DNA of 39,572 nucleotides. Source: Chromatiales bacterium. Lineage in GTDB: Bacteria > Pseudomonadota > Gammaproteobacteria > Thiohalospirales > Thiohalospiraceae. Positions within the stretch are counted from its first letter, which is position 1. Each line of letters starts with the position of its first letter. The notes below the pieces were generated by a model. It was given only the letters and a program-made list of their open reading frames with translations, had not been told where the DNA came from and did no database searches. The stretch lies in NCBI GenBank assembly GCA_026982395.1, contig JALSHD010000186.1:1-39572 (forward strand). The letters are read 5' to 3'. This document shows positions 418-25,966 of the stretch, in pieces. The position numbers were made by a program, and so were the translations under genes.

Positions 418-1227
418 TTATCTGTCACCGTCCATCGCCTGGCGCATTTCCCGCAGCAACGCAGCGACACTCTGCGGAATCTCATCCGGACGATCGGCAA
501 ATTCCGCTATTCTGTTCACCAGTGCGCTGCCGACGATCACGGCATCAGCAAATTCAGCGAACCGGGCGGCGCTCTCGGCATCACGGATCCCGAAGCCAAC
601 CCCCACCGGCAGATCGGTAACGGCGCGGATCTGTGCCAACCGCTGCTGAACCTCGGTGCTGTCCGGCCTGCGGGTGCCGGTCACCCCCTTGATGGAGACG
701 TAGTAGACAAACCCGCCCGCGCTGGCGCACACGGTTTCGATGCGCTGGCGGCTCGATGTGGGAGCAAGCAGGAAAACCGGATCAATGGCCGCTTCCCGGA
801 ACAGCGGCAGGATCTCCCCAGCCTCCTCCGGCGGCAGATCGACGGTTATCACCCCGTCCACGCCGGCCGCCGCGGCAGCGTCGGTAAAGGCGGCGTAGCC
901 CATCACCTCGATGGGGTTCAGATATCCCATCAGTACCACGGGGGTGGCATCATCCTGTTCGCGGAACTGGCGCACCATATCCAGCACCTGATGCAGGGTC
1001 ACACCGTGGGCCAGCGCCCGTTCATCGGCAAGCTGGATCGCCGGGCCGTCCGCCATGGGGTCCGAAAACGGCACCCCCAGTTCAATCAGATCCGCACCTG
1101 CCGCCACCATGGCGTGCATCAGTGGAACGGTCACGGCGGGCTTCGGATCGCCTGCGGTAACAAAGGGGATGAGGGCCGTGCGCCCCGCTGCCTTCAATGT
1201 GTCGAAACGGGCTCCGATGCGGCTCAT
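418..1227 (-). CDS. trpA: Tryptophan synthase alpha chain
   Basis: TrpA cleaves indole-3-glycerol phosphate to indole and glyceraldehyde 3-phosphate in the cytoplasm; indole passes through a tunnel to TrpB. The 269-residue product has the normal length. The two catalytic acids are visible as E49 in [13 protein letters not shown] and D60 in MADGPAIQ, the same numbering as the E. coli enzyme, and the phosphate-binding glycine-rich segment [12 protein letters not shown] and VGSALVNRI are present. Its ATG overlaps the trpB stop by four bases (ATGA), so the two subunits are translationally coupled, which fits their alpha2-beta2 complex. Nothing unusual in the gene itself. Confidence 0.98.
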
Positions 1228-2432
1228 ACCTCAATCCCCTCCAGTGCTGCGACGGTGTGGATATCCTTGTCCCCCCGGCCGGAGAGATTGACCACCAGGA
1301 TAGCGTCACTCTCCATGGTGGGCGCAAGGGTCGCCGCCCAGGCCAGGGCATGACTGGATTCGAGCGCAGGCATGATCCCCTCCACGCGGGTCAGGGTATG
1401 GAACGCAGCCAGCGCCTGGTCATCGGTAATCGCCGTATACTGAACCCGGCCGATATCCTTGAGCCAGGCGTGCTCAGGACCTACCCCCGGATAATCCAGC
1501 CCGGCAGAGATGGAGTGGGTCTCGATAATCTGACCATCGTTGTCTTCCATCAGATAGGTACGGTTGCCATGCAGCACGCCCGGTCTGCCGGCGCACAACG
1601 GTGCGGCGTGGCAGCCGCTCTCCAGCCCTTCTCCCGCCGCCTCCACGCCATACATGGCCACCCCTTCATCTTCCAGGAACGGATGAAACAGGCCGATGGC
1701 GTTGGAGCCACCGCCGACACAGGCCACCAGTGCATCCGGCAGCCGTCCGGTCTGTTGCAGACACTGCTCGCGCGCCTCGCGGCCGATGATGGCCTGGAAA
1801 TCCCGCACCATGGCGGGATAGGGGTGCGGCCCGGCCACGGTACCGATGATATAAAAGGTATCATCCACGGTGGTCACCCAGTCGCGCATCGCCTCATTCA
1901 TGGCATCCTTGAGGGTTCGCGAACCGGAGGTCACCGGCACCACCTCGGCACCCAACAGACGCATCCGGTAGACATTGATGGCCTGACGGCGGATATCCTC
2001 CTCGCCCATATAGATCACGCACTCCAGCCCGAACCGCGCCGCCACGGTAGCGGTCGCCACGCCGTGCTGACCCGCACCGGTCTCGGCAATCACCCGGCGC
2101 TTGCCCATCCGTTTCGCCAGCAGCGCCTGGCCGATGGTGTTGTTCACCTTGTGCGCGCCGGTATGGTTGAGATCTTCCCGCTTCAGATAGATCTGCGCAC
2201 CACCCAGCTCCCGCGACCAGCGTTCCGCGTGATAGAGGGGAGAGGGACGCCCGACATACTGACGCAGATCGCGGTCGAATTCGGCAACGAAATCGGGATC
2301 CTGCCCATAGCGCTCATAGGCCTGGCGCAACTCATCCACCGGCCCCATCAGGGTTTCGGCAATAAAACGGCCTCCATAAGGACCGAAATGACCCCCCGCA
2401 TCCGGGAAGTCGGCATAGTTTATGTCAGTCAT
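1224..2432 (-). CDS. trpB: Tryptophan synthase beta chain
   Basis: TrpB is the PLP enzyme that condenses indole with serine to give tryptophan. The 402-residue protein shows the PLP lysine K95 in [11 protein letters not shown], the ammonia-lyase-like fold signature [11 protein letters not shown], and the phosphate-binding glycine stretch [10 protein letters not shown]. The ATG is preceded by AGGA at a suitable distance. In the ancestral gammaproteobacterial order trpF would lie directly upstream; here a ccdAB pair on the other strand separates them, so trpBA-accD must have its own promoter, and a candidate is seen at 2466-2495. A trpI-type regulator is not visible nearby. Confidence 0.98.
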
Positions 2433-2465
2433 CTAAATCCTGGGTTTTGCTTGATTAACGGGACA

Positions 2466-2495
2466 ATTGTAACTATTTACCACCGGGGGTGTTAA
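2466..2495 (-). promoter_or_regulatory. Candidate sigma-70 promoter for trpBA-accD
   Basis: On the minus strand a -35 like TTAACA (2490-2495) is followed after 18 bases by a -10 like TACAAT (2466-2471), about 33 bases before the trpB ATG. It would give trpBA-accD transcription independent of trpF, from which it is separated by ccdAB. Prediction from sequence match only. Confidence 0.4.
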
Positions 2496-2498
2496 CAA

Positions 2499-2516
2499 CT
2501 ATTAACCCGTATATGG
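2499..2516. repeat. 18-bp intergenic repeat, copy 1 (CTATTAACCCGTATATGG)
   Basis: The 18 bases are identical to 25960-25977, and the match continues to 22 of 23 bases (both copies followed by N-CTCC). Copy 1 lies between trpB and ccdA. The second copy overlaps a stop codon and leads into a hairpin; this copy has no hairpin. It may belong to a dispersed intergenic repeat family of this genome. Confidence 0.6.
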
Positions 2517-2575
2517 TCTCCTCCCGTTTTTCAAGCCCTTGGGGTGGCAAATGACAGGGACAGAAACACCCATTA

Positions 2576-2612
2576 TTGACCAATATTATTCATGCGCATA
2601 AAATATACGCAT
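2576..2612 (+). promoter_or_regulatory. ccdAB promoter with overlapping palindromic operator
   Basis: A -35 TTGACC (2576-2581) and a -10 TAAAAT (2599-2604) are spaced by 17 bases. A 21-base near-perfect palindrome of the form ATGCGnATAaaaTATnCGCAT (2592-2612) covers the -10. This is the arrangement expected for autorepression by the CcdA-CcdB complex; that binding is inferred from the family, not shown. Confidence 0.65.
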
Positions 2613-2635
2613 CACAATTGAAGGTGGTTGTTTTC

Positions 2636-2878
2636 ATGAAACATTTCGATACCCGGGCTCCCAAAAGAGCAACCAATCTTTCCATCAACAGCGACCTGCT
2701 CTCAAAAGCGCGTAAATTGAACATCAATCTCTCGGCCACTCTTGAAAATGCACTTACTGAAGAGTTAAAGAGCAGGCAAAGAGAGCAGTGGCTTGAGGAG
2801 AATACGAGGGCGATTCAGGCATACAATGATTTCGTCGAAAAAGAGGGGGTATTCAGCGAGGAGATCAGGGGTTTCTGA
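2636..2878 (+). CDS. ccdA: Type II antitoxin CcdA
   Basis: The 80-residue product starts MKHFDTRAPKRATNLSINSD; an AAGGTGG ribosome-binding site lies just upstream and favours this ATG over an earlier in-frame start at 2576, which is only reachable through the promoter. The N-terminal half looks like the ribbon-helix-helix DNA-binding domain of CcdA (KRATNLSINSDLLSKARKLNINLSATLE), and the acidic, probably disordered C-terminal part (NTRAIQAYNDFVEKEGVFSEEIRGF) is the toxin-binding tail of the family. CcdA neutralises CcdB and represses the operon. Its stop overlaps the ccdB ATG by one base. The pair interrupts the trpF-trpB junction in the opposite orientation, a sign of insertion. Confidence 0.93.
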   Translation: MKHFDTRAPKRATNLSINSDLLSKARKLNINLSATLENALTEELKSRQREQWLEENTRAIQAYNDFVEKEGVFSEEIRGF

Positions 2879-3195
2879 TGAGCCAGTTCAGCGTTTACAG
2901 AAACAGAAACCCCAAAACCCGAAAAATTTTCCCTTACCTGCTCGATATCCAATCTGATTTACTGGAACAAATTCATACCACTGTCGTTGTTCCGCTGGGA
3001 AAATACTCCACAGTCAAGGATCAGGGCATTACAAAACTGTGTCCGATTGTTGAGATTGATGGTATCGAGTACGCTGCTCTCACACAACAACTTGCCGGAA
3101 TTGACAGAAGGTTGCTGGACGCCGAAGTAACTAATATTTCAAACTGCAGAAGTGACATCATTGCCGCTGTCGATCTGATTCTCTCGGGCATCTGA
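2878..3195 (+). CDS. ccdB: Type II toxin CcdB (DNA gyrase inhibitor)
   Basis: CcdB poisons DNA gyrase by trapping the cleaved-DNA complex unless bound by CcdA. The 105-residue product aligns along the family: MSQFSVYRNRNPKTRKIFPYLLDIQSDLL, then VVPLGKY, LCPIVEIDG, and IIAAVDLILSGI at the end. In F-plasmid CcdB the last three residues Trp-Gly-Ile contact gyrase; here the tail is Ser-Gly-Ile, closer to what I recall of chromosomal homologues of the Vibrio fischeri type, which also lack the Trp. The gene looks intact and is coupled to ccdA (TGATG junction). Whether the toxin is active is not determinable from the sequence. Confidence 0.94.
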   Translation: MSQFSVYRNRNPKTRKIFPYLLDIQSDLLEQIHTTVVVPLGKYSTVKDQGITKLCPIVEIDGIEYAALTQQLAGIDRRLLDAEVTNISNCRSDIIAAVDLILSGI

Positions 3196-3216
3196 CAACA
3201 AACTCAAACAGTAACG

Positions 3217-3870
3217 TCACTGCCCGATCCGGGCACAACAAACGGCCATCACGTTGCGCATGAATTCCGCAATCCGGACCGGGTCCTTTATCCCTTTTTC
3301 CCGTTCCACACCACTGCTCACATCCACCGCATAAGGCCGGGTGCTTTCGATAGCCTGTACCACATTGTCGGGGGTCAACCCGCCCGCCAGGATCAGAGGC
3401 TTGCCGGCCTCACGGGGGAAGCGTTCCCAGTCGAAGCACTCACCACTACCACCCCGGAGATCCTTGTGCCAGGCATCCAGCAACAGGGCTGCTGCATCGG
3501 AGTAGATTTCGGCCTGTTGCGGTACATCCGTCCCTTCCCCCATGGTCAACGCCTTGATATAGGGACGCCCATAACCACGACAGGCCTCGGGCGGCTCATC
3601 ACCGTGGAACTGCAGCAGATCGAGAGGTACCTGCGCCAGCACCTCCTGGATGGTGCTCCTTTTCGCATTTACAAACAGGCCGATGACGGTTACGAAAGGT
3701 GGCAGTTGCTCAACGATGGCCTGCGCCTGGGGGATGGTCACGGCGCGGGGGCTGGCCGGATAGAATACCAGCCCAATGGCGTCCGCACCGCCCTGCGCAG
3801 CGGCGATGCCATCTTCCGGGCGGGTGATTCCGCATATCTTTACCCGGGTCCGGGCTCTCATGGCTTTCAT
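3217..3870 (-). CDS. trpF: Phosphoribosylanthranilate isomerase
   Basis: TrpF performs the Amadori rearrangement of phosphoribosylanthranilate in tryptophan synthesis. The catalytic cysteine is in RVKICGIT near the N-terminus and the catalytic aspartate in YAVDVSSGVE; phosphate loops LILAGGLTPDNV and GADAIGLVFYP are present. The start is uncertain: ATG at 3870 gives 217 residues and ATG at 3861 gives 214; neither has a convincing ribosome-binding site, and the alternatives further out (TTG at 3921) add a non-conserved tail. The gene ends 21 bases from the convergent ccdB, so any terminator must be shared or absent. polX lies 79 bases upstream in the same direction. Confidence 0.95.
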   Translation of the reverse strand: MKAMRARTRVKICGITRPEDGIAAAQGGADAIGLVFYPASPRAVTIPQAQAIVEQLPPFVTVIGLFVNAKRSTIQEVLAQVPLDLLQFHGDEPPEACRGYGRPYIKALTMGEGTDVPQQAEIYSDAAALLLDAWHKDLRGGSGECFDWERFPREAGKPLILAGGLTPDNVVQAIESTRPYAVDVSSGVEREKGIKDPVRIAEFMRNVMAVCCARIGQ

Positions 3871-8570: not shown

Positions 8571-10892
8571 TCACGCAACACTCTTCACCACATCCTGCGC
8601 CGGAACTGCCTGCTTGTCCTTGTCAAAGATCAGCAACAGAGGCGGCAGCAGCAGGAAGTCGATAACCAGCGCCACGGCAATGGCAATAGTGGTAAGGTAG
8701 CCCATGGCCCAGTTGACCTGGAATACCGACTGTGCCAACACCAGAAAACCAGCGATCAGTGTTGCCGAGGTAACCAGCAGCGCCACGCCGACGCGGGTAA
8801 AGGCATAGCGAATGGCATCTTCGGGTGACAGCTTCAACTCGCGCCGTGCACGAAGATATTTGCTGAGAAAGTGCACCGTATCATCGACGATAATACCCAG
8901 CACCAGGGCGGCGACCACCGAGCTGGCCATACCGATCTGGCCGACGAACAGACCCCAGATCCCGAACGCTATCGCCACCGGAAGCAGGTTGGGAACCAGA
9001 CTGATCAGGCCGAATTTAACCGATCGCAATGCGATGATCAGTACCAGCGAAATCGACACCAGTGCCACGACGGATCCGGTCAGCATACTGTCGATACTGC
9101 GTTTACCGATGTGGGAGAACATCAGTGTCGGGCCGGCACCGGTGGCACCCGGTTCGATTCCGTTGTCATTCATCCAGGCGGCGGCCCGCTGATCCAGCTC
9201 AATGTACTCGTTCGAACTCAGGTTCTTCACTGTGACTGACATCCTTGTGCTGGATTTGTCAACATTGAGCTGATTGTTGAGATCCAGCCCGTACGGCAGC
9301 GACATCTCGTAGAGTAACAAATATTGAGCAGCCAGATCGCGCTGCTCCGGCAGGCGATACCAAGCAGGATCGCCCCCGTGCAGATTTTTGTTCAGCCGCT
9401 CAAAAATATCGGTGATGACATTGACATTGTGCACCTCCGGCTGCTGGCGGAACCACTCGGCCAGCGCCTTTACCTGAACCAGGAATTGGGGATTGGCTAC
9501 GCCGCCCTCCTCCCCGCTGTCGAGGGAGTAATCAATCACTCCCACACCGGTCAGGTTTTCATTGACATGATCCGAGTCGGCCCGAAAGGCGACTGATTCA
9601 TCGAAATATTCAACAAAATTATCGTTCAGTTCATTTTTCGGAATAAATATCACCAACGCTGCTGCAACAGCAACACTGCCCCACAAGAACAGAGTGCGAA
9701 ACCGGATCACTTGTTCCGCCAGCCAGGCCATGCCGGGGGAGTCCTTCCGCCCGGCGCGCGGGCGAACCCGCACTGGCAACACCGCGAACAGTGCCGGCAG
9801 CAGCAGGATGGAGAGCAGAAACGCGATGACCACTCCCAACGCTGCGGCGGTACCGAGATGTCCGAAGGGAGGAACTTCGGAGAAGTTGAGTGTCATGAAA
9901 CCAATCGCTGTGGTCAGGCTGGTAAGGAAAACCGGCTGAAAATTGATCCGCATGCTTTCGCGCAGCGCGGCCAGTTTTTCCTCCCCCTCGCGCATTTCGC
10001 GCAGCGCCGGGATCAGAATGTGCACACAGTCCGCCACCGCCAGAATCAGTACCACCAGCGGCACCGATGCCAGCGGCGGCGTCATCGGAAATGCGGCCCA
10101 GCCAGCCAGTCCCAGGGAGGCGAGAATGGTCAGAAAAATCACCGCCGAAGTGATAACAGTGGCGCTAAAACTGCGGAACAGAAGTAGCAGCATGAGGATC
10201 ACGCCCGCAAATGCCAGCGGCATCAGCGTCTGCATGTCTGTCATCGATGCCTCCGCGAAGGCATTGTCCATCATGATGACCCCGGTAAGATAAACCTTTG
10301 TTCCAGGATAATCCGCACGGACCGCCTCTGCCAGCACCCGCGCCGCCGCAGCCACCTTTGGTACCTCGGTAGCCTGATCGATTCCGGGCAGTTCTATGGT
10401 TACATTGACGCCGGTGATCTCCCCGCCAGGGGTAATCAGCCGATTCAACAGCAGCTTTTCATTGAGCGCGACTTCGCGGATGCGGGCAAGATCAGCGGCG
10501 CTCAGTGTCTCCGGATCCACCAGATCCTCCACGACAAGGTCATCTCCCTCCGCCCGGGTATGCTGAAAATTGGTGATGGAATCCACCCGGGTAGAGAACG
10601 GCAACTGCCAGGCTTTTTCGGTAACCTCGGCAATCAGCCTGAGATTGCTTTCGGTAAAAACATCGCCATCTGCCGGCTCGATGGCTAACAGTATATTGTC
10701 GTTTTTGGTATAGATTCTCTGCAACGCCTCAAAGGCGATCAGTTGAGGATTCTCCTCGGAGAAAAACACCCGGTAATCATTGGAAAACTCCAGCCGCGAC
10801 ACTCCGGCAGTCATCGCCGAAATGGCCAACAGGGAGAGCAGGATAACCGGCCAGCGCCAGCGAACGACCCAATCTGTATAACGTTCAATCAT
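8571..10892 (-). CDS. RND superfamily exporter (MMPL/HpnN-like)
   Basis: The 773-residue inner-membrane protein has the twelve-helix RND plan: one N-terminal helix, a large periplasmic loop (about residues 35-215), five helices, a second loop, and six more. Proton-relay acids sit in TM4 (ILAVADCVHILIPALREM) and TM10 (LVLGIIVDDTVHFLSKYLRA), the motifs of the COG1033-type 'predicted exporter' and patched/MMPL family. Such pumps move lipids, hopanoids or other hydrophobic molecules rather than drugs. Its ATG overlaps the tetR stop by four bases, so it is the regulator's direct partner; downstream follow GFA, LolA-like and barrel genes. Substrate unknown. Confidence 0.92.
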   Translation of the reverse strand: MIERYTDWVVRWRWPVILLSLLAISAMTAGVSRLEFSNDYRVFFSEENPQLIAFEALQRIYTKNDNILLAIEPADGDVFTESNLRLIAEVTEKAWQLPFSTRVDSITNFQHTRAEGDDLVVEDLVDPETLSAADLARIREVALNEKLLLNRLITPGGEITGVNVTIELPGIDQATEVPKVAAAARVLAEAVRADYPGTKVYLTGVIMMDNAFAEASMTDMQTLMPLAFAGVILMLLLLFRSFSATVITSAVIFLTILASLGLAGWAAFPMTPPLASVPLVVLILAVADCVHILIPALREMREGEEKLAALRESMRINFQPVFLTSLTTAIGFMTLNFSEVPPFGHLGTAAALGVVIAFLLSILLLPALFAVLPVRVRPRAGRKDSPGMAWLAEQVIRFRTLFLWGSVAVAAALVIFIPKNELNDNFVEYFDESVAFRADSDHVNENLTGVGVIDYSLDSGEEGGVANPQFLVQVKALAEWFRQQPEVHNVNVITDIFERLNKNLHGGDPAWYRLPEQRDLAAQYLLLYEMSLPYGLDLNNQLNVDKSSTRMSVTVKNLSSNEYIELDQRAAAWMNDNGIEPGATGAGPTLMFSHIGKRSIDSMLTGSVVALVSISLVLIIALRSVKFGLISLVPNLLPVAIAFGIWGLFVGQIGMASSVVAALVLGIIVDDTVHFLSKYLRARRELKLSPEDAIRYAFTRVGVALLVTSATLIAGFLVLAQSVFQVNWAMGYLTTIAIAVALVIDFLLLPPLLLIFDKDKQAVPAQDVVKSVA

Positions 10893-11584
10893 GATCTGCT
10901 TCCTTGTTCGACGCGCAACCCTTTCAGATATTCAATCAGCCCGCTACCGCAAGCGTAGAGCGTCTCCATACTCTGCGCCGCCTTGGCGCTGCCGACACAA
11001 CCCTCCAGTGCGGCAAGCACGAAAATCGCCGTCTGTTCCGGATCGATATCAGCACGCACCTGCCCCCGCTGCTGCTCCACCTCCAGAGCGGCAGCGATGG
11101 AATTGCGCCACGAGGCATAGACTCGCTCCAACCGGTCGCGAAACCCCTCATCGATGGGAGACATCTCCTGAGCCAGATTATTCAGTGGGCATCCCAGCCG
11201 CAGCATCTCCGCTCCGGTCTCCTCCGCCGACTTTTGCATCAGTTCGATGAATGTGTCGATGGGACTGCCGGAATCCCGTAACGGCTTGACCCAGAACTCC
11301 TCGATTGAAGTGGCGATAATCTCCTCCACTACCGCATATCCCAACTCGGTCTTGCTACTGAAATAGTAGTAAAGCGCCCCCTTGGTAACTCCGGTATTCT
11401 TCAGAATGCGCGACAGGCTGGCCGCCTGGAAACCATATTCATAAATTTCGTTGAACGCCGCCTCCAGTAGTAACTGGCGTGTCTGTTCGGAGCCGGGCAT
11501 TGCGCCGCAACAGCGGTGAAATATCCATTTGCTTCTTTCTGGCAGTGTATTCTCCGTTTCCGCCTGGAGTGTGTCTTTAACCAT
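10889..11584 (-). CDS. TetR/AcrR-family repressor of the RND cassette
   Basis: The HTH is clear: TRQLLLEAAFNEIYEYGF, AASLSRILKNTGVTKGALYYYF, then SSKTELGYAVVEEII, followed by a ligand-binding domain. I chose the ATG at 11584 (231 residues) because GAGG precedes it by six bases; the ATG at 11500 (MPGSEQTRQ, 203 residues) fits usual family length but has no visible ribosome-binding site. The gene overlaps the exporter ATG by four bases. Two palindromes covering its promoter (11598-11644) point to autoregulation of the whole operon, with a pump substrate or membrane-active compound as the likely inducer (inference). Confidence 0.93.
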   Translation of the reverse strand: MVKDTLQAETENTLPERSKWIFHRCCGAMPGSEQTRQLLLEAAFNEIYEYGFQAASLSRILKNTGVTKGALYYYFSSKTELGYAVVEEIIATSIEEFWVKPLRDSGSPIDTFIELMQKSAEETGAEMLRLGCPLNNLAQEMSPIDEGFRDRLERVYASWRNSIAAALEVEQQRGQVRADIDPEQTAIFVLAALEGCVGSAKAAQSMETLYACGSGLIEYLKGLRVEQGSRS

Positions 11585-11597
11585 ACAAAACCTCATG

Positions 11598-11648
11598 CAT
11601 ACCGGTTGGTATGTCTGGACCATACACCCATACCGATCGATATGTCAA
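11598..11648 (-). promoter_or_regulatory. Promoter of the tetR-RND operon with two palindromic operators
   Basis: On the minus strand a consensus -35 TTGACA (11643-11648) and a -10 TATGGT (11619-11624) are 18 bases apart. Two 16-bp palindromes of the form CATACCGRTYGRTATG-like (11598-11613, CATACCGGTTGGTATG; 11629-11644, CATACCGATCGATATG) lie at the start site and in the spacer, centres 31 bp apart, i.e. three helical turns. They are the best candidate operators for the adjacent TetR protein. Confidence 0.75.
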
Positions 11649-11671
11649 TAGCAGGAAATCAAACCTGACGG

Positions 11672-12133
11672 CTATCCCGCAACGACCAGGTGTTCTCTCG
11701 CCTGCCATATTCCCGCTGCGTATAAAAAACCAATAGCAGCGCTGATAATCGAGCTCCAGAGCCAAAAGGCATCGAGCACATCAGGCCGAATAAAACAGAG
11801 AGGCAAAATGATCAGACCTCTGACCAGATAGATTGTCGATACAATTACCAACACTGTTTTCAGAAAGGGCAGCCGACGCGCAATCCCCGCACCGGAAAAG
11901 GCGTAGAACCCCCACACAAACAGAACCGCAGCAATGCCAAAAGTGATAACGCCGGGATACCATGAGCCCTGTTCAGCCATCACCGCAAACTTTTCACCCG
12001 CACCAAAAAACCTGTACCATTCAGCACCACCAGCAATAATGGCAATATGGAGAAAGGCGGCTGTAAAACTCGACATTCCCCCAGCAGCCAGAATCCAGTT
12101 CCGCCTATCAATCTGTTTCTTGGTTTTCAACAC
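11672..12133 (-). CDS. Small four-helix integral membrane protein, function unknown
   Basis: I do not recognise the family with certainty. The 153-residue product begins at GTG 12133 (GGGAG just upstream) and has four hydrophobic segments: roughly 14-36 (AAGGMSSFTAAFLHIAIIAG), 59-82 (YPGVITFGIAAVLFVWGFYAFS), 90-115 (FLKTVLVIVSTIYLVRGLIIL) and 122-145 (FWLWSSIISAAIGFLYAAGIW). Both ends carry positive charges. It begins directly after the kinase-like gene stop, so it is the third gene of a tetR-kinase-membrane protein unit, and is possibly involved in membrane homeostasis; that is inference from context. Confidence 0.8.
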   Translation of the reverse strand: MLKTKKQIDRRNWILAAGGMSSFTAAFLHIAIIAGGAEWYRFFGAGEKFAVMAEQGSWYPGVITFGIAAVLFVWGFYAFSGAGIARRLPFLKTVLVIVSTIYLVRGLIILPLCFIRPDVLDAFWLWSSIISAAIGFLYAAGIWQAREHLVVAG

Positions 12134-13441
12134 CTACTCCCGATGGGCGGACAACAAACCTTTTGTGGAAATTCTTGCACCCAGTTTCCTGAGCATGCTC
12201 AGCAGACCGAAAAAAGTTCTGTCGAAAAAAACCTGATCCTGACGCATATCGTCAATGAATCCCGCTGCGCTTTTTATCTGTGAAAACTTCTTTTCGGGTA
12301 CAGGCTTCATTTTTGAAAAGTCATACTCCTCGTCCAGAAACGGTGTTGTCATCCATTCAATCAGCTCGCTGATAATCGGCAGAAGTTCTTTTTCGAACTG
12401 CTCATATGCTAGCTCCGGGCTGGTAACGCCCAGATCAATGTAGGTCTGATGAAGTTGAACAGGATCGCGTGTAAACAGACGGGTAACCGTAGCCGGAAAA
12501 TCGGCTGTCAGCTTGTGTACACAGCCAAAATCTATCAGGGAGATGGTGTTGTCATCACAAAAAATGAAATTCCCGGGATGCGGATCGGCATGCAGTACCT
12601 TCAACTCGTGAAGCTGAAAACAAAACAGGTCGAACAGCAACTGTCCATACTGATCCCGCTGTGCCTGGCAGGGCTGCCCCTGCAACCACTGCTCAACATG
12701 CTGGCCATGGACATACTCTGTAGTCAGCACTCTTGCACCGCTGTACTGTCGGTAAACGGCAGGAACGTGAATGCCAGGTAATGTCAGATGCTCACCAAAC
12801 CAGTTCGTATTGCCGGCTTCCTGCTGGTAATCAACCTCGTTTTCAAGCTGTTTCTGTATATCGCTCAAAACAGCATCTACAATTTCATGGCGCGGCAGAA
12901 AAGAGGTGCTTATTGACAGGGATTTCATAATCCCGCGTACCAGTTGAACATCGCTCCGGATGCTGCGGGCTATTCCGGGATACTGAATTTTTACCGCCAA
13001 TACCTCCCCGGCCTCTCCTGATGCCTTGTGAACCTGGCCAAGACTTGCGGCAGCAAAGGCGGTATTTTCAAATGTCGAGAACATGGCTTCCGGTGCCCGC
13101 CCAAACTCCGCCAAGAATACTTTACGAATATGTGCGCGGTTGAGGGGGGTTACCTGACTGCAGGCCTTTGCCAACTCCAAACGGATCCCCTCGGGGAGCA
13201 TGTCCAGTTCCATGCTCATCATTTGCGCAACTTTCAGCGCTGTGCCTCGCAGCTGTGTAAACGCATTAATCAGTATCCGGCCTATCTCCTTCTCATGTAC
13301 ATTCTGGCGGGAGTTTTCATCTGTCGCTGAAAATTTTTTTCTGCCCAGATAGGTAATATGTTTTACACCAACATGCGCCGTAGCCACACCGGCGATAGCA
13401 GCCCGCTTCAGTCTGGTACCGGGTATTTTTTGGGGATTCAT
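12134..13441 (-). CDS. ABC1/UbiB-family atypical protein kinase-like protein
   Basis: The 435-residue protein has the UbiB/COQ8 marks in order: an N-terminal KxGQ-type helix (here GTALKVAQMM, K70 to Q73), the alanine-rich nucleotide loop FAAASLGQVHKA (about 129-140), the VAIK-like lysine K151 in LAVKIQYPG, the catalytic loop VLHADPHPGNF and the metal motif SLIDFG. Unlike ubiB of the ubiquinone operon it lacks C-terminal transmembrane helices and sits with a TetR gene, so it is a second-type ABC1 protein rather than the ubiquinone factor. Family members act as ATPases in lipid or quinone biology; the target here is unknown. The KxGQ glycine is alanine, a variant seen in this subgroup as I recall. 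Confidence 0.9.
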   Translation of the reverse strand: MNPQKIPGTRLKRAAIAGVATAHVGVKHITYLGRKKFSATDENSRQNVHEKEIGRILINAFTQLRGTALKVAQMMSMELDMLPEGIRLELAKACSQVTPLNRAHIRKVFLAEFGRAPEAMFSTFENTAFAAASLGQVHKASGEAGEVLAVKIQYPGIARSIRSDVQLVRGIMKSLSISTSFLPRHEIVDAVLSDIQKQLENEVDYQQEAGNTNWFGEHLTLPGIHVPAVYRQYSGARVLTTEYVHGQHVEQWLQGQPCQAQRDQYGQLLFDLFCFQLHELKVLHADPHPGNFIFCDDNTISLIDFGCVHKLTADFPATVTRLFTRDPVQLHQTYIDLGVTSPELAYEQFEKELLPIISELIEWMTTPFLDEEYDFSKMKPVPEKKFSQIKSAAGFIDDMRQDQVFFDRTFFGLLSMLRKLGARISTKGLLSAHRE

Positions 13442-14512: not shown

Positions 14513-15868
14513 ATGCCAGAAAACAGCGCCGAACAACTTGTCAGCGAACAACAGGCCTTCAGTGAGGCTTTGCATACTCACGCCTATGGCAAGGCGCTCC
14601 AGTTGCTCAATAACATGAATTCGGCAGAGGTTGCTCACCTGCTGGAATCCCTGCCGGCTGACGAACGTGATCTGGCATGGGATCTGGTGCGGACCAAGCT
14701 GGAGGGTGACGTCCTTATTCACGTCAACGACAACCTGCGGGCCAGTCTGATTCGCAAGATGGAGCCTCATGAGTTGGTAGCGGCTACCACTGGTCTGGAG
14801 ACCGATGATCTGGCCGACCTGCTGCCCGACATGCCGGATGAGGTATTCAACAAGGTTCTGCTGTCAATGGATGAACAGAACCGGCTGCGGCTGGAATCCG
14901 CCCTCTCCTATCCGGAGGACTCTGCCGGCGGTCTGATGAACATGGATACCATCACGGTACGCGCCGACATTACCGTGGACGTCCTGTTACGCTACCTGCG
15001 CCGTCACAAAGAGCTACCGGAGCACACTGATACACTGATGGTGGCAGACCGCGAGGGAAAATTCATGGGCGTGGTTCCCCTGACCACCCTGCTGACCAGC
15101 GCTCCAACCGCAACCGTCGCCGAGATTATGCAGCGGGACGTGGAGGCGATACCAGCCGACATGCCCGCTCATGAGGTAGCCAAACTGTTCGAACTTCACG
15201 ATCTGGTCAGTGCCCCGGTAGTGGACGACAAAGGGATGCTGCTGGGACGTATCACCATTGATGATGTGGTGGATATCATCCGCGACGAAGGCGAGCACTC
15301 CCTGATGAGCATGGCGGGTCTGCATGAAGAGGAGGACCTGTTTGCACCGGTAATCCCCAGTGCACGGCGCCGGGCCCTGTGGCTGGGAATCAATCTGCTC
15401 ACCGCATTTCTCGCCTCCTGGGTGATCGGGCAGTTCGGCGCCACTATCGAAAAACTGGTGGCGCTGGCGGTTCTGATGCCGATTGTGGCCAGTATGGGGG
15501 GCATTGCCGGGAGCCAGACCATGACGCTGGTGATTCGCGGCCTGGCACTGGATCAGGTCAGCGACCATAATGCCCGCAAACTGTTACTCAAGGAGGCCAC
15601 CGTTGGTCTGCTCAACAGCATGGTATGGGCGCTGGTAGTTGCTACAGTTGCCTGGCTATGGTTTGGCAGCCCCGATCTGGGCGCGGTAATCGCCGCAGCA
15701 ATGACCATAAACCTGCTTATTGCCGCCGTCGCCGGAGTAATAATCCCTCTGCTGCTGCGCAAACTTGGAGCCGATCCGGCTCTTGCTGGCGGGGTGGTGC
15801 TGACCACGGTTACCGATGTGGTCGGCTTTCTATCCTTCCTTGGACTGGCGACGCTGTTTTTGATCTAG
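14513..15868 (+). CDS. mgtE: Magnesium transporter MgtE
   Basis: MgtE is a homodimeric Mg2+-gated Mg2+ channel of the inner membrane. The 451-residue sequence has the N domain of helical repeats (LLESLPADERDLAWDLV, LADLLPDMPDEVF), a CBS pair (about 140-260; SAGGLMNMDTITVRAD, LFELHDLVSAPVVDDKGM, GRITIDDVVDIIRDE) and five C-terminal helices from about 280, including the pore segment LMPIVASMGGIAGSQTM and TTVTDVVGFLSFLGLAT with the selectivity aspartate in the last helix. It is a single gene convergent with flgH. No nearby gene suggests a special role. Confidence 0.96.
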   Translation: MPENSAEQLVSEQQAFSEALHTHAYGKALQLLNNMNSAEVAHLLESLPADERDLAWDLVRTKLEGDVLIHVNDNLRASLIRKMEPHELVAATTGLETDDLADLLPDMPDEVFNKVLLSMDEQNRLRLESALSYPEDSAGGLMNMDTITVRADITVDVLLRYLRRHKELPEHTDTLMVADREGKFMGVVPLTTLLTSAPTATVAEIMQRDVEAIPADMPAHEVAKLFELHDLVSAPVVDDKGMLLGRITIDDVVDIIRDEGEHSLMSMAGLHEEEDLFAPVIPSARRRALWLGINLLTAFLASWVIGQFGATIEKLVALAVLMPIVASMGGIAGSQTMTLVIRGLALDQVSDHNARKLLLKEATVGLLNSMVWALVVATVAWLWFGSPDLGAVIAAAMTINLLIAAVAGVIIPLLLRKLGADPALAGGVVLTTVTDVVGFLSFLGLATLFLI

Positions 15869-16003
15869 GGTGCAGGCAATGATTAGGTAACCTGTTTCCA
15901 GCCTGTCAAGACTGCCTCCTGCACCAACCGGCGATCCTCTTCCGGGCGCTCCTCCCTGTCGCCTAAAGGCAATTGCGGTTCGGCTTCCCCCTCATATTTT
16001 CGG

Positions 16004-16708
16004 TCAAAATGGCCAGATGGCACTCAGCGTACGGCTCAACCATCCCTGCCGGTTGGATTCAGCAACAACACCATTTCCACCATAGCTGATGCGGGCATCT
16101 GCCAGCTTGCTCGACAGGACGGTATTGTCAGGACCAATATCCTGTGGACGCACTATTCCTGCTACACGGATATATTCGCTGCCCTGATTCAGTGACAGCG
16201 TTTTCTCACCGCGCACCACCAGATAGCCGTTGGACAGCACCTCAATCACACTGACAGCCACATTGCCACTCAGGCTGTTACTCTGACTGCTGTCACCGGC
16301 ACCGCCGAACTGTTGTTCTGAACCATAAGCCGCCGCCAGATTGTTATCCTTGTAACTGGACAACGGCAGTACACGCGGCGCATTGAACTGCACCTGGGCT
16401 CCGAACAAAGTAGGGTTGTCAATCTTGACCTCGTTAGTTCGGGAGGTATTGGTTTTTGCGCTCTTGCTGGCGCGTGTCTTTTCCGAAAGCTTGACGGTGA
16501 GAATGTCCCCTACCCGCCTTGCACGGCTGTCCCGAAACAGAGACAGGCCGGCTCCCGACTGAAAGATGCTGCCGCTGTTTTTCTGCACCGGGACAGGAAC
16601 AGGCCGCGCCGGAGCATAAGCCGGATCACGTTTCGCCATATCCGGCGTCGTGCTGCAGCCGGTCAGAAATGCCAGTAGAACCAGAATCAGGAAAGTTAAC
16701 TGTTTCAT
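16004..16708 (-). CDS. flgH: Flagellar L-ring lipoprotein FlgH
   Basis: FlgH forms the L ring in the outer membrane around the flagellar rod. The signal peptide ends in the lipobox LTGC (C18 lipidated), and the body shows SIFQSGAGLSLFRDSRARRVGDILTVKLSE, VSVIEVLSNGYLVVRGEK and IRVAGIVRPQDIGPDNTVLSSKLADARISYGG, diagnostic for the family; the length (234) is normal. It follows flgG by eight bases and is the last gene of the block: convergent mgtE comes next where flgI, flgJ, flgK and flgL would usually follow. The P-ring gene flgI must therefore lie elsewhere. Confidence 0.96.
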   Translation of the reverse strand: MKQLTFLILVLLAFLTGCSTTPDMAKRDPAYAPARPVPVPVQKNSGSIFQSGAGLSLFRDSRARRVGDILTVKLSEKTRASKSAKTNTSRTNEVKIDNPTLFGAQVQFNAPRVLPLSSYKDNNLAAAYGSEQQFGGAGDSSQSNSLSGNVAVSVIEVLSNGYLVVRGEKTLSLNQGSEYIRVAGIVRPQDIGPDNTVLSSKLADARISYGGNGVVAESNRQGWLSRTLSAIWPF

Positions 16709-16716
16709 ATCAATAC

Positions 16717-17502
16717 TTATAGGTTTTGAGTTACATACTGCAACATCTGATCGGTTGTGGAGATCGCCTTGGAGTTCATCTCATAGGCGCGCTGGGTCTC
16801 AATCAGATTCACCAGCTCCTCCACCGCATTAACATTGGAACTCTCCACGTTACCCTGCAGTACCGTACCCAGTCCCTGCTGCCCCGGGGTCCCCGCCTGG
16901 GGGGCACCACTTGAAGCTGTCTCCAGAAACAGGTTTTCACCCACTGGCTCAAGCCCGGCCGGGTTGATAAAATCGGCAAGCTGCAGCGCACCCACCTGGT
17001 TCGGCTGGGCACTACCCGGCACGGTAACCGTCACCACCCCATCAACGCCAATGGTAATACTCCGTGCATTTTCCGGAATGGCAATTCCCGGCTGCACCAG
17101 ATAGCCGTTGGAGGTTACCAGCTGCCCCTGGGCATCCAGATGGAAGGAGCCATCACGAGTGTAGGCAATCTGACCATCCGGGCGCTGAATCTGAAAAAAT
17201 CCCCGCCCCTGCACCGCCACATCCAGTGAGTTGTCGGTCTGGATAATATTACCCTGGGTATGCAGTTTTTCTGTGGCCACCGTGCGCACTCCGGTTCCCA
17301 GCGACAATCCAGAAGGCAGGGTGGTATCCTGACTTGTCTGCGCACCAACCTGGCGCACGTTTTGATACAGCAGATCCTCAAATACCGCCCGGGACCTTTT
17401 GAAGCCGTTGGTGCTGACGTTGGCCAGATTGTTGGAAACCACATTGAGGCGCGTCTGCTGCGCATCAAGTCCGCTTTTTGCTACCCATAGTGCTGGATTC
17501 AT
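16717..17502 (-). CDS. flgG: Flagellar distal rod protein FlgG
   Basis: FlgG builds the distal rod of the basal body. The 261-residue product has the rod/hook N-terminal motif ([37 protein letters not shown]) and the matching C-terminal helix [28 protein letters not shown], with the central D1-type domain [27 protein letters not shown]. It lies 14 bases downstream of flgF with GGGGAA before its ATG. Length and motifs are normal. Confidence 0.97.
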
Positions 17503-17516
17503 CGTTCAATTCCCCG

Positions 17517-18257
17517 TTAGCTGATCCGCAACAGTGACTCCGCAGCCTCTGCATTATCATTTGCGGTTTTCATCATCTTTACCTGCATCTCGTACTGGCG
17601 CTGCAGATTGATCATCTCTACCATCGCCTGTACCGCATTGACGTTGCTGCCCTCCAGCGCCCCCTGCTGCAGACGCACATTCAGGTCCGGCGTAGCAAAT
17701 CCACCCTCCTTGATGCGCATCAGACCGTCATCACCCTTTTCAAGATCTTCACGGGCAGGATTAACCAGCTTGATACGTCCAACTTCCACCAGCGTCTGCG
17801 CCGTCTGTCCTACCGGGCGAATAGAGATCGTGCCATCCCGCCCCACAGTGATAGTCTCGGCCGGTGGCAGGGCAACAGGGCCGTTGTCCCCCATCAGGAG
17901 ATGTCCGGCTCCCGTCATCAACAGACCGCCCGGTCCAATACTCAAATCCCCGGCCCTTGTATAGGCCTCACTACCATCCGCCGCCTGAACTGCAAACCAC
18001 CCTTCACCATCAATAGCCAGATCCAGATCACGGCCGGTATGCTGCAACGGCCCCTGGGCAAAATTGATCCCCGGCCGTTCATCCATTGCATAAACACGGC
18101 TGGGATGCCCGGGTCCAAATACCGGCATACTGCGAAACTGATTCAGATCTTCGCGAAATCCTGTGGTGGTTGCATTGGCAAGGTTATTGTTAATGGAGCG
18201 CAGGGCCAACATGCGTTGCCTGGCACCACTCATCCCGACGTATAACATTCTGTCCAC
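17517..18257 (-). CDS. flgF: Flagellar proximal rod protein FlgF
   Basis: FlgF is a minor proximal-rod component. The product of 246 residues begins at GTG (MDRMLYVGMSGARQRM); AGGGG sits nine bases ahead, and the MDRMLY opening is the family's usual start, so GTG is preferred over the ATG three codons in. The N-terminal SINNNLANATTTGFRED and the C-terminal VQAMVEMINLQRQYEMQVKMM are the paired assembly helices. It opens a short flgF-flgG-flgH block; flgB, flgC, flgD and flgE, which normally precede it, are absent. A sigma-54 type promoter lies upstream at 18297-18312. Confidence 0.95.
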   Translation of the reverse strand: MDRMLYVGMSGARQRMLALRSINNNLANATTTGFREDLNQFRSMPVFGPGHPSRVYAMDERPGINFAQGPLQHTGRDLDLAIDGEGWFAVQAADGSEAYTRAGDLSIGPGGLLMTGAGHLLMGDNGPVALPPAETITVGRDGTISIRPVGQTAQTLVEVGRIKLVNPAREDLEKGDDGLMRIKEGGFATPDLNVRLQQGALEGSNVNAVQAMVEMINLQRQYEMQVKMMKTANDNAEAAESLLRIS

Positions 18258-18502: not shown

Positions 18503-20614
18503 TCAGATTTTAAACTGTCCGACCATCTCCCGCAGTTCCACGGCCAGCTTGGCCAGCTCACTACTTGATGCGGAACACTGTTGAGCATCTTTCTCCGTCT
18601 GCTCGCTGATTTCGGAAACCGTTGCAACATTGGCCGTCACATCATGGGTAACAGCAGATTGAGCTACTGTCGCGCCAGTAATCTGCTGGATGCGATCTGA
18701 CAGGCCATCAACCACCTCTACAATCTGTTCCAGCGAGGCACCAGCCTGATTGGCCATCTCGACTCCCTGCTCGGCCTCCTTGCGCCCCGCTTCCATTGAA
18801 ACCACGGCCGCCTCGGTTCCCGACTGGATAACCTTGACCATATCAGCAATCTCCTTGGTCGCGTCGGTAGTTCGATTTGCCAGTCCGCGCACCTCATCGG
18901 CAACAACAGCAAACCCGCGCCCTTGCTCACCTGCGCGCGCCGCCTCGATAGCGGCATTTAGCGCCAGCAGATTGGTCTGGTTAGCAATATCCTCGATAAC
19001 CGATACAATCTGGTCGATCTGTTCAGAGTGGCGTGCCAGTTGCTCCACTTTTTCCGCCGACTCCTGCACTGTTGAAGAGACCTGTACCATTCCGTCAATG
19101 CTGTGCCGGACAATCTCCCCGCCCTTCACCGCCACATCTGAAGCCTGGGCAGCTGCACTGGTCGCCTCTTCAGCATGTTGCGACATCTCGCGGGAAGTCT
19201 CTTCCATCTGCTCCATGGAGCGGGCAACTGTTTGGGTCTGTACTGCCTGTTTTCCCGCTCCCTCTTTCATTTGCCGGCTGACATCCACAATCCGGGCCGT
19301 TGAGTCAGTCAGATGCTGGGCGGTAGCATTAATCTTCGACACCATGGTGTTGAGATTGCCACTTACCGTATTCAGCGCATTGGCCAGTGTTCCCATCTCG
19401 TCTTTACCCGAAATGCTCAGTTTTTGGGTAAGATCCCCTTCTGCTATTTTGTTGGCTACACCAACCAGCCGAGTAACCGGCTCAATGATAGCGCGGTTGA
19501 ACATCACAAAAATTATTCCAAAACTCAGCAACGTCAATGCTATCATTGCGGTAACAGACCAGAGAATAAATACCTGGTTACCATGTGCATAGTTCGTGAA
19601 TGACTTGGTCAGATTGTCACTCACCTTGCGCAACTGGTTGGAACCGCTCATTACCTCCTCATAGGCCTGCCAGTAAGCATCGGTTCCCGCTTTTTCACCC
19701 AGCAATGTCTGTACCGCCTGCTCAAATTTCCGCCATACTGTTTCCACCTCTGATATGTCTTGCAGAACGGTTTTATCTGTAGCGCCCCCATAAGCTCGGA
19801 ATTCTGTCATATCAAGATTGACAGGGTATTTCCCCCCTGATTTGAACGCCGTTAATGTCTGGACAAATATATCCCTGGCAGTGTCATATTCCTCCAGACT
19901 TGGTTTCAGCCGCTCCCGTCCCAATGCAATACTGTCCGCATAAACAATATCGTAACGCCGCACACCCAGCATATCCCCTGTTTTAAAAGGCTTGCCCTTC
20001 ATACTGGTATGACAGGATGCACAGACCGGTATCGTGGCATTGTCCGCAGTATAAAAGCGCAGGTGCATTTTGTTTTCAAGCTCAATGGATTTCGAAAAAA
20101 CTTTTGTTGGATTGGCTCTCAGTGCAGCATAAGCTTCGCGATCAACGGCATCCTGCAGCCCCATTTTCGGGTTAACCGGATCTTCGGACAAGATGGTTAT
20201 CGACATCCCACCCTTGGCAGCAAATGATTCTCCCACCATACGCGCAAAGGTCGCCGGATAGGGGACAGCCGGGTAAGACTCGTGACCGGGGTTCATGGAG
20301 ATCCCAACCCCGCCCTGTTTGGCAGACCCGACCACTGCCGTGGTGTAGATACTGCGCATCTTGCTAATGTAGCTGTCGAATTGAGCCACCTTGGTTTCCA
20401 GGCTCTGCAACTCTTTTTTGGCCAGAGAGTAACCCATAACGGATTTGGCCATCGCCTGGGTCAGCATTCGCTGCCGCCCTGCTGCATCAACAATCTCAGA
20501 GTCGCTCTTGGCTCCCGCCAAAGTAACGAATACGACAACGCTGCACAGCATCACCAGAAATGATCCGGATACCAGAATTATCGCTGTTTTTGCCTTGATA
20601 CTTAGTGTTCTCAT
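18503..20614 (-). CDS. Methyl-accepting chemotaxis protein with a periplasmic heme-c-type (CxxCH) sensor
   Basis: The 703-residue receptor has TM1 (about 11-33), a periplasmic sensor (34-346), TM2 (348-372), HAMP (about 373-425) and a cytoplasmic signalling domain with the conserved tip [20 protein letters not shown] (542-561) and [13 protein letters not shown]. The sensor begins with the PilJ/NarX-type motif [17 protein letters not shown] (43-59), is interrupted by a DUF3365-like (Tll0287) segment (about 105-230) carrying CASCH with C198, C201 and H202, and returns to a four-helix-type segment [26 protein letters not shown]. CxxCH on the periplasmic side predicts covalent heme c, so the stimulus may be redox state, oxygen or nitric oxide. 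A sigma-28 promoter precedes it and a strong terminator follows, so it is a single-gene unit of the flagellar regulon. Confidence 0.94.
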
Positions 20615-24538: not shown

Positions 24539-24610
24539 GGATGTCAGGAAACAGGAGTACCGCCTCCACTTTATTTGATTCACCACCATTCCGACTCGGG
24601 GGAAATCTGT

Positions 24611-25966
24611 ATGAAAAACCGCTCGCTGCTCACGATAGCCGTAACCCTGGCTTTAACCGGCAACATTACGCTGGCAGCCCCTTTTGGCAGCTTCGATCCG
24701 CGCTCCATGGCAATGGGTGGTACCGGCGTCGCTTCCGGAACTGGTGCAAATGCCAGCTTCTACAACCCGGCCTTGCTGGCTGGTGACAGCAACCGGTTCC
24801 ACCTGGAGCTCCCTGTTCTCGGCTTCAATGTGGCCGACCCGGATGAGCTGATAAAGGAACTGGACGATTTCCAGAGCGGGAACCAGCTCGATCTTCTGGA
24901 TGAGGCGGTCAGGCAGTTCAATCTTCTACCCACATCAAACAATGCCCAGGCCGTTGTGAACAGCATGAGCGACGTCAACGACACTGTAAAAACATTCAGC
25001 AACAAGGCGCTGGAAGGAAGCCTGTTTGGCGGCAGCGTGATCAGCTTTCCAGCCAAGGAGTATGGAGTTGCATTTCACCTATCAGGGATTGCAACCGGCG
25101 GCGCCCAACTGGATTACAGAGACGCACAAACCGTGAACTTGCTGAACAGCGAACTGACGGAATTAATCGGGCTTCAGGATGCAGTTACCAGTGCCAACAC
25201 TGATGCAGAAAGGATTGCCGCCCTTCAGGACTTGCAAAATTTCGCCACTGGCAGTCAGTTTGTACAGTATGACTCTGTGACTGAAACCGCCACAATTACC
25301 AACGTGGAACCCGAGTCCGAGCTGCAAACCCGCGCCATCGCAATCGCCGAAGTCGGGATCTCCTTTGCCCGGAACATGGAGTTCAGCTTTGGTAAGCTGG
25401 CAATTGGTGTAACCCCGAAATATATGCAGGTATCCACAATCGATTATGTGGCCAACGTAAAAAGTGCCGAATTCAGTCTTGATACCAATAAGATGGACTC
25501 CAGCACTTTTAATATTGATGTAGGTGTCGCCAAAAGCTATGACAACGGTATTACCACCGGTGTAGTAATCAAAAACCTCATCCCGCAAAGCTTTGAAACA
25601 GCCAATACAAGCGGGATGGGAGATATCAAAATGAATCCGCAGGTACGTTTTGGCGTTGCCCGCTCTACCGTATGGAACAGCGTGGCCAGAAGCACTGTGG
25701 CTCTGGATCTGGACGTAACTGAAAACGAGCCAGTGGGCTTCGATCAAAAAACCCGTTATCTCGGATTAGGCGCTGAACTGGATATTTACAGCACCGCACA
25801 GTTACGACTGGGATACAGGAAAAACCTGAGTAACGGCAGCTATGCCGACAGTATCAGCACGGGGCTGGGTCTCTCTCCACTGGGGGTACATCTGGATCTC
25901 GCCCTGTCCGCCAGCCCAAATCTGGAACAGGTATCTGCGGGAGTGCAGCTCGGATTCCGCTATTAA
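24611..25966 (+). CDS. TraF_2-type predicted outer-membrane protein (annotated elsewhere as 'conjugal transfer protein TraF')
   Basis: The 451-residue product (ATG at 24611 after GGGGGAAA) has a signal peptide ending ITLAAPFGSFDPR and the family's opening SMAMGGTGVASGTGANASFYNPALLA, which is also the N-terminal pattern of FadL/PorV-type 14-strand barrels. The rest alternates strands and turns with a coiled central insert (about 110-230), and ends VSAGVQLGFRY with a terminal aromatic. Despite the name, no conjugation gene is near and a role in transfer is doubtful; an outer-membrane transport or assembly role is more likely. A sigma-28-like site upstream hints at a link to motility. A convergent barrel gene follows beyond a hairpin. 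Confidence 0.8.
   Translation: MKNRSLLTIAVTLALTGNITLAAPFGSFDPRSMAMGGTGVASGTGANASFYNPALLAGDSNRFHLELPVLGFNVADPDELIKELDDFQSGNQLDLLDEAVRQFNLLPTSNNAQAVVNSMSDVNDTVKTFSNKALEGSLFGGSVISFPAKEYGVAFHLSGIATGGAQLDYRDAQTVNLLNSELTELIGLQDAVTSANTDAERIAALQDLQNFATGSQFVQYDSVTETATITNVEPESELQTRAIAIAEVGISFARNMEFSFGKLAIGVTPKYMQVSTIDYVANVKSAEFSLDTNKMDSSTFNIDVGVAKSYDNGITTGVVIKNLIPQSFETANTSGMGDIKMNPQVRFGVARSTVWNSVARSTVALDLDVTENEPVGFDQKTRYLGLGAELDIYSTAQLRLGYRKNLSNGSYADSISTGLGLSPLGVHLDLALSASPNLEQVSAGVQLGFRY

Follow-up and report, generated by a model that had tools for sequence, protein, structure and literature searches.

The chemoreceptor McpN of Pseudomonas aeruginosa binds nitrate via R61, a residue of the N-box [IVL]-[ND]-x-A-G-x-Q-R-M-L-[ST]-Q (PMC6381276). 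Periplasmic sensors carrying heme have also been described. In a February 2026 preprint (PMC12889525) the Pfam family PF11845 is described as sCache_heme, whose Cache domain carries heme c covalently and has CXXCH conserved at ~99%; heme-c chemoreceptors of Geobacter were reported earlier (PMC8396549), so the heme domain considered below is already known. A signalling member of sCache_heme without an axial Cys retains NO, releasing it slowly, and gives no stable complex with O2; a stand-alone member appears to be redox-like (PMC12889525).

The receptor described here has both kinds of sensor in one chain. It is encoded in a window of 39,572 nucleotides, the whole stretch of DNA that was analysed, from a Chromatiales bacterium (contig JALSHD010000186.1), as an uninterrupted open reading frame (Table 1). 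HAMP (PF00672) and MCPsignal (PF00015) both score above the Pfam curated cut-offs, and the protein is thus a methyl-accepting chemotaxis protein. The initial annotation had a PilJ/NarX-type segment (residues 43-59) opening the periplasmic region, a DUF3365-like block between two such segments, and CASCH at C198, C201 and H202. Pfam finds PilJ (PF13675) at residues 31-87 (34.1 bits; curated cut-off 26.6) and Tll0287-like (PF11845, formerly DUF3365) at residues 89-210 (34.5 bits; cut-off 24.1), in agreement with the first two points, and the Cys and His residues lie exactly where they had been placed. Orthologues were present in 7/7 other members of the genus searched, one of them truncated by a contig end.

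Table 1. Features of the nested receptor and its neighbour, in window coordinates
Feature	Position	Strand	Basis
Chemoreceptor gene, 703 aa	18503..20614	(-)	Open frame; Pfam PilJ, Tll0287-like, HAMP, MCPsignal
TM1, residues ~6-33	20516..20599	(-)	Start of model helix 6-100; superposes with TM-containing NarQ structures
Helix H1, first half of PilJ bundle, residues 34-68	20411..20515	(-)	Pfam PilJ 31-87; common to insert-free L007
Nitrate N-box, residues 42-53	20456..20491	(-)	Complete agreement with published consensus (PMC6381276)
Inserted heme-c Cache domain (sCache_heme), residues 69-236	19907..20410	(-)	Pfam PF11845; limits from L007; 5b82 Z 12.8
CASCH, heme c attachment motif, residues 198-202	20009..20023	(-)	Invariant in nested and heme-domain alignments
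M86, possible distal heme ligand (speculative)	20357..20359	(-)	Conservation in main nested clade
Helices H2-H4, remaining bundle, residues 237-346	19577..19906	(-)	Model; common to L007; 6gcv covers model 35-345
TM2, residues ~347-371	19502..19576	(-)	Model helix 312-391
HAMP, residues 372-422	19349..19501	(-)	PF00672, 51.7 bits
MCP signalling domain, residues 504-669	18608..19105	(-)	PF00015, 152.6 bits
flgF, downstream same-strand neighbour	17517..18257	(-)	Sequence of frame

The limits of the insert can be read from homologues that lack it. L007, a 544-aa receptor from an endosymbiont that oxidises methane, has the same bundle without residues 69-236 of the window receptor. It aligns to residues 1-68 and then to 237-346, with 6 residues between the two parts versus 168 in the window receptor, and other receptors repeat this pattern of bundle halves separated by a short gap. 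By this comparison the insert, initially put at about 105-230, occupies about 69-236, and the bundle restarts at about 237 rather than near 268. The Magnetococcales contig L086 has receptors of both kinds, an insert-free one with a strict N-box lying ~7 kb from a nested heme receptor (1118-3388 and 10584-13016, (-)).

An AlphaFold2 model of residues 1-425 (7 sequences; mean pLDDT 80.6) has a continuous helix over residues 6-100, Cache-like strands and helices up to 236, and then H2 (241-259), H3 (281-306) and H4 (312-391). The endosymbiont receptor is predicted to be a plain bundle, with H1 at 6-67, H2 at 71-97, H3 at 119-144 and H4 at 150-230. Set against one another, the two sets of helices place the insert at the H1-H2 turn, at the membrane-distal tip, with the first Cache helix continuing H1, so the proposal of the initial annotation that the heme block is inserted in one four-helix bundle is upheld by the prediction. 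CASCH falls between the model strands 182-190 and 218-226, the last strands of the Cache sheet, in a region of low confidence (pLDDT ~47-59). VIA-align ranks the nitrate domain of McpN (6gcv) first against the model (Z 15.9, 126/126 residues, rmsd 2.1, model 35-345), followed by a second tier of NarQ structures, and Tll0287 (5b82) matches over model residues 68-229 (Z 12.8, 142/161 residues). As Z values up to ~13 between helical bundles may reflect a common arrangement only, weight is placed on the full-length McpN match together with the Pfam PilJ match and the N-box. Alignments and model together indicate that the nesting of the heme Cache within the four-helix bundle is real. A search for PilJ plus DUF3365 in one chain, as had been suggested, returned 27 distinct nested receptors, and all 11 nested homologues scanned by Pfam match both sensor families.

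The insert is assigned to sCache_heme by its Pfam match, the placement of CXXCH and its predicted Cache fold, that of 5B82. Shuffling the periplasmic segment yields a CxxCH in only 0.025% of cases. C198, C201 and H202 are invariant in an 11-row alignment of nested homologues, the CASCH motif is invariant also in a 26-row alignment of heme domains, and CXXCH is kept in 67/68 heme-block rows examined; few parts of the block are as well conserved as this motif and its surroundings. The one exception, the nested receptor L064 (1843-2346, (-)), reads CINCP at this point, and its near relative L063 keeps CXXCH. In the window receptor heme would be attached to CASCH. C198 and C201 are the only periplasmic Cys residues, and there is no third to supply the axial Cys ligand of the stand-alone, Cys-ligated (redox-like) sCache_heme, which places the window receptor on the signalling side of the family. 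By analogy with published work (PMC12889525, PMC8396549), NO or redox appears likelier as the heme input than oxygen; the three had been offered together at first, and oxygen is the one now disfavoured. The same genome encodes a separate Tll0287-like protein (L008) with a further Cys and with no signalling domains in the stretch examined.

Most members of the main nested clade share M86, which is directly followed by an invariant Arg; plain heme sensors and the second nested group have D, L, I, V, F or A there. M86 is a candidate for the distal heme ligand, or may be a mark of the clade. Its role as a ligand stays speculation: phmmer searches with single domains, made to locate the distal ligand, failed to retrieve the Geobacter structures, and neither the profile search nor the stand-alone copy gave an alignment to Tll0287 before about residues 67-76 of the latter.

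Residues V42-Q53 match the N-box consensus at 12/12 positions, R49 corresponding to McpN R61 and being invariant in the nested alignment. By PilJ match, N-box and four-helix fold the bundle is of McpN type, and it would be expected to bind nitrate. The intact N-box suggests that the bundle is probably a second sensor and more than a relay. The initial picture of a heme domain inserted in the surrounding bundle is supported, and a sensing role for the bundle itself would go beyond it. The strict N-box occurs in 11/27 distinct nested receptors, including those of the window genus and its nearest gammaproteobacterial relatives; most other nested receptors have A changed to L with GxxR kept, and four lose the glycine. 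Because the N-box is changed in most nested relatives outside the window clade, nitrate sensing does not extend to the entire nested family, and the distribution of the strict N-box makes the dual-input reading strongest for the window receptor's own clade.

Nested receptors are present in Gammaproteobacteria, Magnetococcales and one Nitrospirae genome. On a tree of the bundle halves, a well-supported branch separates 22 of them plus L007 from the rest, where L015, L063 and L064 make up a second nested group placed among insert-free receptors. A single clade of all heme-bearing rows is rejected on the bundle tree (AU p 7e-5) and is not rejected on the heme-domain tree (p 0.16, lnL difference 0.8). 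Two acquisitions at one loop, or one acquisition with later losses or exchange of the block, are both possible histories. L007 falls inside the heme clade on the bundle tree (100/93), and its placement outside is not rejected (p 0.14); most likely it lost the heme block. With few exceptions the nested relatives scanned are MCPs, and taxis thus seems to be the main use of the nested sensor. One nested receptor, L013 (7-2538, (-)), carries a hemerythrin domain (PF01814) at its C-terminus as well as the PilJ, heme Cache, HAMP and MCPsignal domains, which might give a single chain a third site for sensing gas or redox. In L001 (5001-8834, (+)) a nested sensor is in frame with a molybdopterin oxidoreductase (PF00384, PF01568); this fusion was discarded as an output type since the abrupt junction in the MCP region makes a chimeric contig likely.

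The host genome has narG, CcmF for heme-c maturation and one CheA. Its heme-d1 cluster encodes two Cytochrom_D1 proteins, NirJ (above its NCBIfam cut-off) and a NirDL protein resembling siroheme decarboxylase. The genome also encodes an insert-free NarX-like kinase (L110) and an insert-free PilJ-like receptor (L112). nirS itself was not found in the draft genome of the host, and in sister genomes (e.g. G212, G274, G276, G278) a separate contig also encodes a cytochrome-d1 protein with a nirS-like length. Judged by its genes, the host is a nitrate respirer, probably one that makes NO in its periplasm. Among the genus loci, panB is kept on one side in the five that include that flank, and flgF is on the opposite side in two (L050 and L052), as in the window. 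At 14513-18257 the window has flgF, flgG and flgH (-) and then mgtE on the opposite strand instead of flgI, so the flagellar rod/ring operon is split there. Further along, at 24575-25966 (+), a member of the TraF_2 family (TraF domain of the F-plasmid transfer operon) is encoded amid housekeeping genes.

We favour, as only just probable, the reading that the receptor is a nitrate bundle of the McpN/NarX type with sCache_heme at its membrane-distal H1-H2 loop, steering motility by a heme that reads NO or redox and by nitrate at the H1-H1' axis. It is favoured because of the domain matches, the insert-free homologues, the model superpositions, the N-box, the lone CXXCH Cys pair, the host genes and the neighbouring flgF. 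Counting against it are the altered N-boxes of most nested relatives beyond its own gammaproteobacterial clade, the low model confidence around CXXCH and the failure to find nirS in the draft. The Ccm system of the host would attach heme c to the inserted Cache domain, and the heme would then read periplasmic NO or the accompanying redox poise. Nitrate would bind at the H1-H1' dimer axis, as in McpN. Both the heme Cache, whose first helix prolongs H1, and the nitrate site would move H1, and the signal would pass through TM2 and HAMP to the MCP hairpin, CheA and the flagellar motor, so that the cell would be steered in gradients of nitrate and NO. An extension of this scheme, to which we give considerably less credence, is that one receptor reads two steps of one respiratory pathway, with nitrate attracting and accumulating NO warning, and that the loop acquired its nested sensor more than once and can also lose it.

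The heme could instead read redox potential by switching of axial ligands or spin state, with redox or energy taxis as the outcome, as proposed for GSU0582 and GSU0935. The Geobacter heme-c MCPs have been interpreted as sensing redox through exchange of Met and water ligands (PMC8396549), and M86 could serve as such a ligand in the main nested clade. We nevertheless hold this to be rather unlikely, since the Geobacter domains bind NO too, the host carries genes leading from nitrate to NO, and the single signalling member studied for gases has the slow NO release and lack of a stable O2 complex noted above (PMC12889525). Alternatively, the heme domain might be the sole sensor, with the PilJ bundle a relay stalk and the N-box a remnant. 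The altered N-boxes outside the window clade would fit such decay, but the complete N-box within that clade and the invariance of R49 speak against it, and for the window receptor we regard it as doubtful.

The converse, that the bundle alone senses nitrate and the insert is a structural or oligomerisation cap, or free of heme, can point to L007, which exists without the block, and to L064, which has the block and has lost CXXCH. The conservation of CXXCH in every other row makes it very improbable. That the nested architecture is an assembly chimera deserves almost no credence: the window's contig is one of 193 in a draft assembly, but the same nested order recurs in independent genus assemblies and in many other families, and these homologues in independent genomes rule out an assembly artefact.

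Both parts of the preferred nitrate-and-heme receptor are known, and what appears new is their nesting and the combination with an intact N-box. Among the openly available papers searched, no report was found of nesting plus an intact N-box and no paper pairing Tll0287-like or DUF3365 with PilJ, nor did any relevant account of Cache domains nested in four-helix sensors emerge. The receptor might respond to nitrate and also to NO, a toxic intermediate of nitrate respiration. As a route by which periplasmic NO could feed into chemotaxis, a role first proposed for sCache_heme in 2026, it is a concrete candidate, and it allows one to ask whether NO serves nitrate respirers as a corrective to nitrate taxis. 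The nested Cache and the natural insert-free homologues would together provide a direct test of the integration of two signals on one chemoreceptor helix.

Among known systems, McpN (PA2788; 6GCV) resembles the window receptor in the full-length match of the bundle, the strict N-box with its nitrate-binding Arg and the MCP output, but has no inserted domain where the window receptor has 168 residues in the H1-H2 loop. NarX and NarQ share the bundle fold and the GxxR nitrate motif, and NarQ structures superpose including TM and HAMP; they differ in having a kinase output and no inserted heme domain. GSU0582 and GSU0935 of Geobacter sulfurreducens are likewise MCPs with a periplasmic heme-c PAS/Cache domain, although theirs is a periplasmic domain of ~135 residues between two TM helices, without a nitrate bundle. 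The signalling sCache_heme of P. azotoformans has the same Cache fold, CXXCH, lack of an axial Cys and coupling to HAMP (PMC12889525). Published sCache_heme domains are either stand-alone or the sensor of their chain, whereas the copy in the window is nested in a nitrate-type bundle.
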